A DNA stretch of 64,000 nucleotides from Candidatus Limosilactobacillus faecipullorum. GTDB taxonomy: Bacteria > Bacillota > Bacilli > Lactobacillales > Lactobacillaceae. The notes beneath the pieces were generated by a model. The model saw only the letters and a list, made by a program, of their open reading frames with translations. It was not told the origin of the DNA and searched no databases. This document shows positions 2,966 through 16,013 of this stretch, piece after piece. Made by a program: the position numbers and the translations under genes. The DNA is taken from the NCBI GenBank assembly GCA_019118465.1, contig DWYX01000059.1:1-64000 (forward strand), given 5' to 3'. How positions within the stretch are numbered: the stretch's first letter is position 1; each line of letters opens with the position of its first letter.

Positions 2966-3057
2966 TCATTTTTAAGAAAACGGTTTAGGATAGGATAAAC
3001 GGTTAGTTAAATTAAAAAATGTGCTAAGATAGAAGCGTTAAAAAAGGGGTGTTATAT

Positions 3058-3519
3058 ATGGGAAATAGAGATCGACGAAAATTGATTAAGCAATTAATTG
3101 CAGATTTTAAAATTAGTACGCAAGAAGAATTGTTACAACGTCTAAAAGATGCCGGGGAAGAAGCAACCCAAGCAACGATTTCGCGGGATTTGCATTCACT
3201 CAACGTCGCAAAAGTAAATGATGAAAATGGGCATTCATACTATATCCAAGTTGAAAATGCCGCATCTAAAATTAATCAGCGGATGTATGAGATGATTCGA
3301 AATACGGTTGAATCAATTACCACGGTTCAATTTATAAATGTTATTAAGACAACCCCGAACTCAAATTACGCCACAATTTTAGCAGGACTATTTGATGATA
3401 GTCAGATGCCTGAAGTTACGGGAACGCTAGCGGGAAATGATACCTTTATTACGATTAGTCGGACTCCAGAAGAAGCAAAAAAGATTAACCAATTAGTGCA
3501 AAAGTACATGGAACACTAG
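3058..3519 (+). CDS. argR: Arginine repressor family transcriptional regulator
   Basis: This is an ArgR/AhrC protein of 153 residues from the ATG at 3058, which has AAAAAGGGGTG upstream; the ORF track starts three codons earlier at a GTG with no spacing for that ribosome binding site. The N-terminal winged helix contains the typical stretch QATISRDLHSL, and the C-terminal oligomerisation and arginine-binding domain ends with GTLAGNDTFI. The usual motif is GDDT, so the first aspartate of the arginine-binding pair is Asn here. That change is compatible with the second ArgR paralog found in many lactobacilli, where two ArgR proteins act together. No arginine genes lie nearby, so targets are elsewhere. 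Convergent with the ArsR gene. Confidence 0.9.
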   Translation: MGNRDRRKLIKQLIADFKISTQEELLQRLKDAGEEATQATISRDLHSLNVAKVNDENGHSYYIQVENAASKINQRMYEMIRNTVESITTVQFINVIKTTPNSNYATILAGLFDDSQMPEVTGTLAGNDTFITISRTPEEAKKINQLVQKYMEH

Positions 3520-3529
3520 CAGATACGAT

Positions 3530-3581
3530 AAAAGCGGGAGGCTGAGAAGAAACTTATGTTTCTTCCCAGCCTCCCGCTTTT
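3530..3581. terminator. Bidirectional terminator between argR and the arsR-type gene
   Basis: AAAAGCGGGAGGCTGAGAAGAAAC pairs with GTTTCTTCCCAGCCTCCCGCTTTT with one A-C mismatch and a four-base loop. T-rich flanks on both strands let it serve both convergent genes. Confidence 0.85.
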
Positions 3582-3582
3582 G

Positions 3583-3885
3583 TTACCGGCCCAAACCGGA
3601 ATTTTCGACAGCATCCGCAATGAGGGACATAATTTGAGGGCTAGTTAATTGATAAACCATATTTTTACCATGACGACTAGCTGAAACTAGTTTTTTTTGC
3701 TTTAGTAGCTTTAATTGATGAGAAACGGCGGATTGTTCCCATTCTAGCGAAGCACTAATTTCTGAAACGGTCATCCGATTTTGCATTAGCAGATAAAGTA
3801 ATTGTAGTCGTTTGGGATGGCCAAGAACTTTAAACAGGGAACTAACTCGTTGGAGCTCTTCTTGGCGAAGTGATTGATAATTCAC
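3583..3885 (-). CDS. ArsR-family winged-helix regulator
   Basis: This is a 100-residue small winged-helix repressor. The segments VLGHPKRLQLLYLL and VSEISASLEWEQSAVSHQLKLLK are the helix-turn-helix core of the ArsR/SmtB family. No CxC metal-binding motif is visible in the recognition region, and the protein has no cysteine that I can see, so a classical arsenic or cadmium sensor is unlikely. The GTG start is preceded by GGGAGG. It is transcribed away from the LysM gene and stands alone, so no target can be inferred from neighbours. Related proteins respond to redox state, sulfide or unknown signals. Confidence 0.8.
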   Translation of the reverse strand: MNYQSLRQEELQRVSSLFKVLGHPKRLQLLYLLMQNRMTVSEISASLEWEQSAVSHQLKLLKQKKLVSASRHGKNMVYQLTSPQIMSLIADAVENSGLGR

Positions 3886-3965
3886 CCGGGACTACCTCCC
3901 TTTAAAGAAATTTGTTAAAAAATGAAGTGGCTACACAAGGGAAGCTACTTCATTTTTAGTTTACT

Positions 3966-5921
3966 TTAGAATGATAGTTTTTGACCAACGTAAATGGTAT
4001 AAGGTTGGCTAATATTGTTTTGCAAAGCTAATTGTTGCCAGTTGACGCCCAACTTTGTCGCAATGCCATAAAGCGTGTCACCACTAGTAACGGTGTAGGC
4101 ACCGGAAGCAGTGGTGCTAGTCTTGGTAGTAACATTTGAAGTAGTTGTACCACTAAGCTTTAAAGTTTGACCAACATAAATCATATTTGGATTTGAAATT
4201 CCATTTACCTTTGCTAAGGCTTCATAGGAAGTACCGTGAGCACTAGCAATGCCAGAGAGGGTATCGCCACTTTTGACAGTGTAGGTACCTTGAGTAGTAG
4301 TAGTTGCTTTTGTAGTAGTGCTAGTTTTGGCGGTTGAAGAAGAACTATTAGCGAGCTTTAAAGTCTGACCAACGTAGATTAAGTTTGGGTTGGTTAAGTT
4401 GTTCAAAGTTGCTAGTTTTTCATAAGTCGTGTTGTGACTTGTAGCAATGCTTGATAAGGTGTCACCGGACTTAACCGTGTAAGTGGAAACGCTAGTTGAA
4501 GTTGTATTTGAACTTGTCTTAGCTGTAGTTGAATTAGTAGTTGCCTTAACCTTGAGAACTTGGCCAACATAAATTAAGTTTGGATTAGTAAGTTGGTTTA
4601 GTTTAGTTAGGGTTGAGGTAGTTGTGCTAAATTGGTTTGCGATACCAGAAAGGGTATCCCCCGACTTAACCGTATAAGTAGTTGCATTGGTTGAACTAGT
4701 ACTTTGACTAGTTTGACCAGAGGAAACATTAGTAGAAGCACTAGCTTGACGAACTAATAACCGTTGACCAACGTAAATTAGGTTTGGATTAGCCAGGTGG
4801 TTCAATTGGGTTAAGGTTTGAACGGTGGTACTGTGATTACTTGCAATCCCAGAAAGGGTATCCCCCGACTTAACCGTGTAGTAGTTAGTCCCCCCGGTTG
4901 AAGTTGAGGTTCCGTTGCCTCGATCACTAGTGTTATATGAGGTTCCATTACTAGTGCTGTTGTTCTTAGTGTTAACGGCGGTTGTACCAGAAAGGGCAAT
5001 CGTATCTAAGCGATCAAGACCGTAAGTTTGAACCAACTTGATTAAAGAACTTGCATAGCTAGGATCAGTAGCATAGCCATCGGCACTAAGTTTATGAGCA
5101 ACGCTTGTATAGTTAGTATCTCCAAGTAAGTTGCTGTAACGACTATTTTCGTTTAAGAATGCACCGTGATCTTCAACGGATTCGTTGTTGCTAGCATAGG
5201 AACGGAAGTTGTCGTATACATAAACGCTTCGACCATTGTAAACTTCGCGTGTTTGCAAACGAATTGAATTACCGTTGTAACTCCCCTTGATCCCAAATAA
5301 GTTGTGAGCAGCAGTTGAAAGATAAGAATTTCCCCAACCACTTTCGAGAATAGCTTGGGCAACTGTAATGGAAGGTAATACCTTGTACGTTTGCCAACCA
5401 TTGATTGCCCCTTGAGCGACACTTTCAATGAAGGCTTGGCTATGTGCGTTGGTAGAGAAAGTGATTGAATTTAGATCAACACTAGCTGAGGAATTGGCCG
5501 CTGACGAAGAAGTAGCGACTTTTGATTCAGCCACGTTAGCACTAGTAGCAACTTTTGAATCTGTAACTGCGGCTAAGTTTAGTGTTGTGGTTTCGCTAGT
5601 AGCGGCACTATTTTCACTTACCTGTGAGCTAGCGCTAGTTGCTGACGAAGTAGCTGATGAGGCACTGGAAGTAACTGCACTAGCGGTAGAAGTGCTTTGG
5701 CTAGCGCTTGAAGCCGCACTAGTAGTGGCGCTACTGTCACTGCCATTGGCGCTCGTTGTTTGGACTGCACTATTTGGATTAGCTGTTTGGTCATCGGCGT
5801 GAGCAACAGCTCCGGTTGCTGTTAACAAAGTTAAAGCACAAACGCTAGTAAATACCCACTTGCGACCGCTTTTATACATCTTATAGTGCAGATTAGTAGT
5901 TTCGTATTGAGTGTTTTTCAT
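3966..5921 (-). CDS. Secreted LysM-domain glucosaminidase (peptidoglycan hydrolase)
   Basis: This 651-residue exported protein should cut or remodel peptidoglycan. It starts with a long KxYKxGKxW-like signal peptide ([10 protein letters not shown], then a hydrophobic run and cleavage near AHA-DD). A low-complexity Ser/Ala/Thr linker follows to about residue 150. The glucosaminidase domain (PF01832 type) covers about 155-320, with the hallmark [10 protein letters not shown] and HNLFGIKG. Five LysM repeats at about 345-390, 415-460, 480-525, 545-590 and 607-651 each contain YTVKSGDTL or YTVTSGDTL and IYVGQ, and bind glycan chains. The repeats are separated by Ser/Thr-rich spacers. It is monocistronic and convergent with nothing nearby. 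Activity is either N-acetylglucosaminidase or N-acetylmuramidase; the two cannot be separated by eye. Confidence 0.93.
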
Positions 5922-15051: not shown

Positions 15052-15801
15052 CTATTCTAAGCCAATTGATTTGGCATAGGCGCTTTCTTGGGTAGCTACC
15101 CGTTGCCGTTCTTTTTCGTTATACCATGGTGAAATGGTAAAGGCTAAAATATCATTAATTAGGTAAATGGAACTGTTAATTGCCATTGCAAGGGTTGCAG
15201 AACCTTGGCGGAATGAAACGAACCAAAGAACTAACTGGGCAAGGCCAGAAGCTAGCCACCAGAAGTATTGGTTGTTAAAGCGCAAGAAGCAGATCACACC
15301 AGCAGTTAAACTAATTGAGAAGCTAATCGCATCAATCCATGGTCGAGGGTCATCGGTAAAACGACCGATAAGACTTCCTGATACTAGATAAACCACAATG
15401 GTTGCGAGAATTGCAATTGTCCAACTTTTAGCAGTAAAATGGCGAATCTTAGCAGCCATGTTAACGTTCCAGTTAGCAGAAAGAAGAACCGGAATGTCTA
15501 AGGTAATAACATAGGCAAGTTGTTCAAGAATACTAAGGTAATTTTTAGCGTTTAAGCCCGCAATAATAAAGCAAATTGCTGATAGGATTCCAAGCCAGCC
15601 ATTAACGGACTTAGCAGCGTTAATGGCTAATACGCATAGAACCCCAAGGGTCGTACCAATAAAAGTGATTACGGTCACCCAAGTGATTGGGGCATTCACT
15701 AAGTTCATTAGTTGACAACCAAGGCTAAAGTAAAATAGATAATAGTTTTGCTTGGGCCAACCTTTTAATTGGTGGGTTAGGAAATTAATATAATTTGTCA
15801 C
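15052..15801 (-). CDS. PnuC-family nucleoside transporter, possibly PnuN (deoxynucleosides)
   Basis: This 249-residue membrane protein belongs to the PnuC family, facilitators that move unphosphorylated vitamin-type nucleosides which are then trapped by a kinase. Seven to eight hydrophobic segments, the aromatic stretch YFWWLASGLAQLVLWF and a C-terminal NDILAFTISPWYNEKER match the family. Classical PnuC takes nicotinamide riboside; relatives take thiamine (PnuT), riboflavin (PnuX) or deoxynucleosides (PnuN). The leader carries two NrdR-box-like sites and no riboswitch-like element, which favours PnuN. No nadR-type kinase is adjacent. The GTG start has AGAGG about ten bases upstream. Confidence 0.85.
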   Translation of the reverse strand: MTNYINFLTHQLKGWPKQNYYLFYFSLGCQLMNLVNAPITWVTVITFIGTTLGVLCVLAINAAKSVNGWLGILSAICFIIAGLNAKNYLSILEQLAYVITLDIPVLLSANWNVNMAAKIRHFTAKSWTIAILATIVVYLVSGSLIGRFTDDPRPWIDAISFSISLTAGVICFLRFNNQYFWWLASGLAQLVLWFVSFRQGSATLAMAINSSIYLINDILAFTISPWYNEKERQRVATQESAYAKSIGLE

Positions 15802-15821
15802 TCGTCATCATCCTCTTTTCT

Positions 15822-15837
15822 CTTCTATATCTTGTGT
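15822..15837 (-). promoter_or_regulatory. Candidate NrdR box 2 (proximal)
   Basis: Read on the minus strand this is ACACAAGATATAGAAG, matching the NrdR consensus acaCwAtATaTwGtgt at 12 of 16 positions. It lies 30 bp from the second box, close to the usual tandem spacing of three helical turns. Confidence 0.5.
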
Positions 15838-15851
15838 TTTGATTTGATAAT

Positions 15852-15867
15852 ACACAAGATTTTGTGT
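15852..15867 (-). promoter_or_regulatory. Candidate NrdR box 1 (distal)
   Basis: ACACAAAATCTTGTGT on the minus strand matches the NrdR consensus at 14 of 16 positions and is palindromic in its outer six bases. NrdR represses ribonucleotide reductase and linked deoxynucleotide genes when dATP is high. Confidence 0.55.
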
Positions 15868-15886
15868 CTAAAAGACGACGAAAACT

Positions 15887-15914
15887 AGTATAACAGTTTG
15901 AATTTAGAAAACAA
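15887..15914 (-). promoter_or_regulatory. Probable promoter of the PnuC-family gene
   Basis: On the minus strand TTGTTT and TATACT are 16 bases apart. A start about seven bases downstream would put both NrdR-like boxes in the early transcribed region, so repression would work by blocking or by an overlapping second promoter. Confidence 0.4.
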
Positions 15915-16013
15915 GAAGATTTGCATTGATTAATCTAGTGATATGTTATAATCACTGCTTACTTAGATTTAATGAAAACATTTTCTTTTAAAATCAAAAA
16001 GTTTTTCAGCCAA

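Follow-up and report, generated by a model that had tools for sequence, protein, structure and literature searches.

The window, 64,000 nucleotides of a Candidatus Limosilactobacillus faecipullorum contig, carries on its minus strand the gene pnuN (15052..15801), which encodes a PnuC-family membrane transporter of 249 amino acids. The gene matches PF04973 (1.5e-29) and is the only one matched by this family in the genome (1.52 Mb, 88% complete). A probable ribosome-binding site (AGAGG) together with the GTG start is assigned by sequence to 15799..15816 (minus strand), and an earlier start is excluded because an in-frame TGA lies just upstream of the GTG. Two NrdR boxes are found in the leader on the same strand. 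Box B, ACACAAAATCTTGTGT (15852..15867), is promoter-proximal and strong, while box A, ACACAAGATATAGAAG (15822..15837), is start-proximal and weaker; they take the top two ranks in the window, box B before box A, when it is scanned with a motif learned from leaders. They match the consensus acaCwAtATaTwGtgt at 14 of 16 and 12 of 16 positions, respectively, and the spacer between them (15838..15851, 14 bp) is within the permitted NrdR spacer lengths. A tandem pair with these match counts, 30 bp apart and followed by a PnuC-family gene, had been proposed in the first-pass annotation. Both the pair and the gene proved to be as described, the 30 bp being the start-to-start distance. The C4/G13 base pairs, which are contacted by NrdR in Streptomyces (PMC9110341), are present in both window boxes and likewise in 119 of 126 boxes of relatives.

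A probable extended -10 element, TGtTATACT, is located at 15887..15895 (minus strand). It was missed by a stricter promoter scan; the form TGnTATACT is shared with the leaders of L. alvi and L. ingluviei. Judged from this -10, transcription of pnuN probably starts near 15880 and the boxes would lie just downstream, at about +14 to +59, where bound NrdR would therefore block early transcription. An RNA element of a known class in the pnuN leader, such as a riboswitch, was considered and rejected, since the Rfam search of the window gave zero matches. Near 20 other PnuC-family genes, no RNA pointing to NAD or thiamin was found.

PnuN is 70-98% identical to its counterparts in 80 named relatives, and the closest of these by protein is Limosilactobacillus alvi (98%). 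The nicotinamide riboside transporter model TIGR01528 scores PnuN at 78.6 bits, above its cutoff of 42.45; this model cannot tell a PnuN role from a PnuC role. The AlphaFold2 model of PnuN (pLDDT 89.9) has a single significant match in the PDB, PnuC 4QTN, with a TM score of 0.73-0.74. We take Asn189 of 4QTN to be a binding-site residue. The residues W182, W185 and N189 of 4QTN correspond in PnuN to Tyr or Phe, Trp, and Gly, respectively; the window protein has Y179, W182 and G186 and thus departs from the PnuC binding site. WxxW is the substrate-binding motif of PnuC (PMC7162841). It is retained in the nadR-linked PnuC clade.

Single boxes are common in this genome. With up to three mismatches the consensus matches 102 times, and the reversed control 126 times, so a genome-wide significance of single boxes, showing no excess over the control, is unconvincing by itself. 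Only two single-mismatch sites exist genome-wide, and one of them is box B of pnuN. The motif was trained on 78 distinct boxes from the pnuN leaders of 63 other species; the L. alvi leader scored under the selection threshold and is therefore absent from the training set. Scanning the window with this motif gives a score of 30.1 for the pnuN pair and 10.1 for the next pair elsewhere, and the highest pair score among 2000 shuffled leaders is 14.6. The box pair is far beyond chance. The ribonucleotide reductase (RNR) leaders of the same genome score 31.2 (nrdDG) and 28.2 (nrdHEF), both with 15-bp spacers. A motif learned from pnuN scores them equally well and thus predicts RNR leaders. A separate observation concerns the 16-mer CTACAATATCTTGTTT, which occurs at four places in the genome (C13:71591, C37:2178, C54:8190 and C56:17); four copies suggest a repeated or mobile element and not regulation.

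The leaders of 80 named relatives span Limosilactobacillus, Levilactobacillus, Lactiplantibacillus, Pediococcus, Loigolactobacillus, Paucilactobacillus, Secundilactobacillus, Apilactobacillus and Enterococcus. Loss of the boxes in relatives had been named as an argument against the proposal; the pair is kept in 78 of the 80 leaders, each scoring above all 2000 shuffles. These 78 are pnuN leaders or, in six Enterococcus, leaders of operons of a deoxynucleoside kinase (dNK) and pnuN. None of 30 leaders of other Lactobacillaceae PnuC-family genes carries the pair (scores of at most 1.3). Of the tested leaders, 63 served for training and the others did not; independent tests of the motif come from the RNR leaders, from the other PnuC-family genes and from the distant lineages. 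A motif-free count of consensus matches agrees, with at least 25 of 32 positions in 63 of 80 leaders, 0 of 30 others and 6 of about 4800 shuffles. NrdR is reported to bind when the spacer is 14-17 or 24-27 bp long, and roughly a hundred times more weakly at other lengths (PMC12051234). A search open to any spacer of 2-44 bp places all 79 boxed leaders (window included) in two classes, 14-16 bp (n = 24) and 24-27 bp (n = 55), and the spacer class has changed at least four times on well-supported branches of the protein tree. In a further genus, which may be that of L. acidophilus, the pnuN-like genes are 62-64% identical and are boxed among those listed.

Some loci of relatives depart from this arrangement. 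Two Enterococcus pnuN orthologues (L118 and L139, about 3000-4010) have no boxes and lie beside a divergent gene, named P450-like by eye; these two are sister species and seem to have lost NrdR control. In a congener (L186, 2835-3647), the place that pnuN has here, between greA and the macro-domain gene, is taken by a PnuC-family gene of only 29% identity, which is preceded by a tandem box pair with a score of 28.9 and a spacer of 15. Here the gene would have been replaced or have diverged fast while the control was kept.

The genome was searched for boxes by pattern and for companion genes by family. Absence of nrdR had been regarded as fatal to the proposal; an intact NrdR is present (TIGR00244 5e-60, 201.8 bits, cutoff 124.65). 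The search for reductase and kinase genes, suggested at the same time, yielded a class III NrdD/NrdG and a class Ib NrdE/NrdF with NrdH, both systems preceded by boxes, as well as two deoxynucleoside kinases and one nucleoside deoxyribosyltransferase. No NrdR boxes are found ahead of the genome's own dNK or nrdR genes. Full-length NadR is not found in the 88%-complete genome, which gives only a partial match of 25 bits. Elsewhere in Lactobacillaceae, PnuC beside nadR recurs. None of 19 family genomes with PnuN has full-length NadR, but compared with 151 genomes this gives a Fisher p of 0.08, and mutual exclusion of NadR and PnuN was set aside as statistical evidence.

A linkage of pnuN to dNK is observed in other genomes. 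In six Enterococcus, pnuN follows dNK by about 50 bp and lacks boxes of its own, and the pair, with a spacer of 25-26, precedes the kinase. At 29 dNK loci without a nearby pnu gene, no box pair is found. A distant genus of Enterococcaceae has a boxed pnu-dNK operon in all five genomes (L193, L194, L195, L248 and L249), with a transporter 27-28% identical to PnuN. This transporter scores 215 bits with TIGR01528, as a canonical PnuC, and has FxxW in place of WxxW. One tree joins the L193-L195 lineage to PnuN and a second tree joins it to PnuC, and the operon is possibly a second, independent recruitment.

PnuN homologues are encoded in 110 phage records, mostly of phages of lactobacilli and enterococci, often next to genes for a deoxynucleoside kinase, a deoxyribosyltransferase or a reductase; the annotation of most of them reads NMN or nicotinamide riboside transporter. 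Among the records read, the gene order is nrdD-kinase-pnuN-nrdH in EFDG1 and EfsSzw-1, ndt-dGK-pnuN in VPE25, dNK-pnuN in 9181 and 3-521, and dGK-ndt-nuclease-pnuN in Lb338-1; a glutaredoxin gene and ndt are near pnuN in ATCC 8014-B2. No such gene is annotated near pnuN in Nyseid, LpeD, LP65, SAC12B, LfeInf, Semele and WCP30. All 15 phage pnuN genes examined begin the TM6 motif with Tyr, and the nadR-linked phage gene begins it with Trp. This latter gene belongs to EFDG1, which has a second PnuC-family gene, with WxxW, adjoining nadR. In this one genome, each of the two PnuC-family genes thus has its own partner (L254, 1834-5919 and 7721-9593). Box pairs are found at the start of nrdD in EFDG1 (score 23.7, spacer 26) and in EfsSzw-1 (L253, 2815-6916; score 25.3, spacer 25), with the second box overlapping the annotated start in both. 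Immediately ahead of the phage pnuN copies, no boxes were found.

Published expression data exist for Levilactobacillus brevis, whose orthologue (L085) carries the box pair. Between 6 h and 18 h, expression of the gene annotated there as 'NrdR-regulated deoxyribonucleotide transporter, PnuC-like' goes up by log2 4.67 in strain Lbr-6108 and 3.22 in Lbr-35 (PMC8419935). In the same strains, in that order, the class II RNR rises by 4.41 and 2.86, and the class Ib RNR by 3.10 and 2.80 (beta) and 2.52 and 2.64 (alpha) (PMC8419935). The joint rise is consistent with control by NrdR; the link is one of co-expression, in late growth and amid many other changes. PnuN itself was predicted by Rodionov and Gelfand (2005) in Lactobacillus acidophilus, so far as the citation in PMC7749635 conveys; the precedent named in the first-pass annotation is real. 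Our literature search found no transport, NrdR-binding or repression experiment on PnuN.

Taken together, it is very probable that the gene is pnuN, a PnuC-fold importer of deoxynucleosides that would be controlled by NrdR and work with dNK. PnuC itself operates by facilitated diffusion, its substrate being trapped by NadR (PMC7221760). By analogy, PnuN would let deoxynucleosides into the cell, presumably also by facilitated diffusion, and the deoxynucleoside kinase would trap them as deoxynucleotides, as NadR does with nicotinamide riboside imported by PnuC. Such a pairing would explain the dNK-pnuN operons. At high dATP, an NrdR tetramer is expected to occupy both boxes downstream of the promoter, and pnuN, nrdDG and nrdHEF would be switched off; a drop in dNTPs would turn on uptake and, with it, ribonucleotide reduction.

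The boxes could instead be a chance pair of palindromes or belong to another regulator, as single boxes are common in this AT-rich genome. This is extremely unlikely: the boxes are paired and obey the spacing rule, they are conserved from genus to genus and from family to family, and the RNR leaders of the same genome carry the same motif. The gene could also be a PnuC of the usual kind, importing nicotinamide riboside for NAD salvage, that happens to have come under NrdR. The PnuC fold of the predicted model and the TIGR01528 score above cutoff are consistent with this, but we consider it quite unlikely: full-length NadR was not found in the genome, while PnuC-nadR adjacency recurs elsewhere in the family; the first Trp of WxxW is replaced by Tyr or Phe and Asn189 by Gly in PnuN; and in EFDG1 the YxxW homologue lies beside dNK/nrdD and the WxxW homologue beside nadR. 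The first-pass annotation had likewise preferred deoxynucleotide supply to NAD salvage, a preference that is favoured by the dNK linkage, the failure to detect a full-length nadR and the RNR co-expression (PMC8419935).

A broader nucleoside transporter under NrdR, accepting ribonucleosides as well as deoxynucleosides, or bases, is unlikely too. Substrates of PnuC relatives vary widely, with thiamin and riboflavin being carried by some (PMC7749635). Deoxynucleoside kinases and deoxyribosyltransferases work beside general nucleoside salvage. Against such breadth stand the control by the RNR repressor and the linkage to enzymes specific for deoxynucleosides and not for ribonucleosides.

Beyond the assignment of pnuN as a deoxynucleoside importer, we lean towards a wider reading, in which PnuN and dNK form a transport-and-trap pair parallel to PnuC/NadR, placed under the RNR repressor in lactic acid bacteria and acquired several times by phages, sometimes within a phage RNR cluster with NrdR boxes at nrdD. 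The spacer would have changed repeatedly by one turn of the helix, which would be natural support for the helix-phase rule of NrdR at a non-RNR gene. If pnuN is an NrdR-controlled importer of deoxynucleosides, the RNR repressor would balance the synthesis of deoxynucleotides against their import, both in bacteria of food and probiotics and in the phages of these bacteria. A widespread annotation would then also need correcting, as the NCBI model and many phage records name these proteins nicotinamide riboside or NMN transporters.

A transporter of the PnuN kind is already known from the 2005 prediction, and the role exists in annotation; the proposal of the first-pass annotation is correct and has more support than could be known from the sequence at first sight. 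In the L. acidophilus prediction as in the present case, a lactic acid bacterium has a gene of the PnuC family behind tandem NrdR boxes, and the predicted role is the same. Nothing essential differs, and what is new is the species, the 14-bp spacer (as in L. alvi) and the evidence from kinase operons and phages. Compared with PnuC of Neisseria mucosa (4QTN) and of E. coli, the fold, the Pfam family and the length are alike. The identity of PnuN to 4QTN and the other PnuC-family genes compared is about 20%, and PnuN differs from PnuC in having YxxW for WxxW, Gly for Asn189, NrdR boxes and no nadR linkage seen. With the NrdR regulon of Lactobacillaceae (nrdDG and nrdHEF), pnuN shares the same 16-bp boxes, with spacers of 14 or 15 bp in this genome; unlike these targets, it encodes a transporter and not a reductase.
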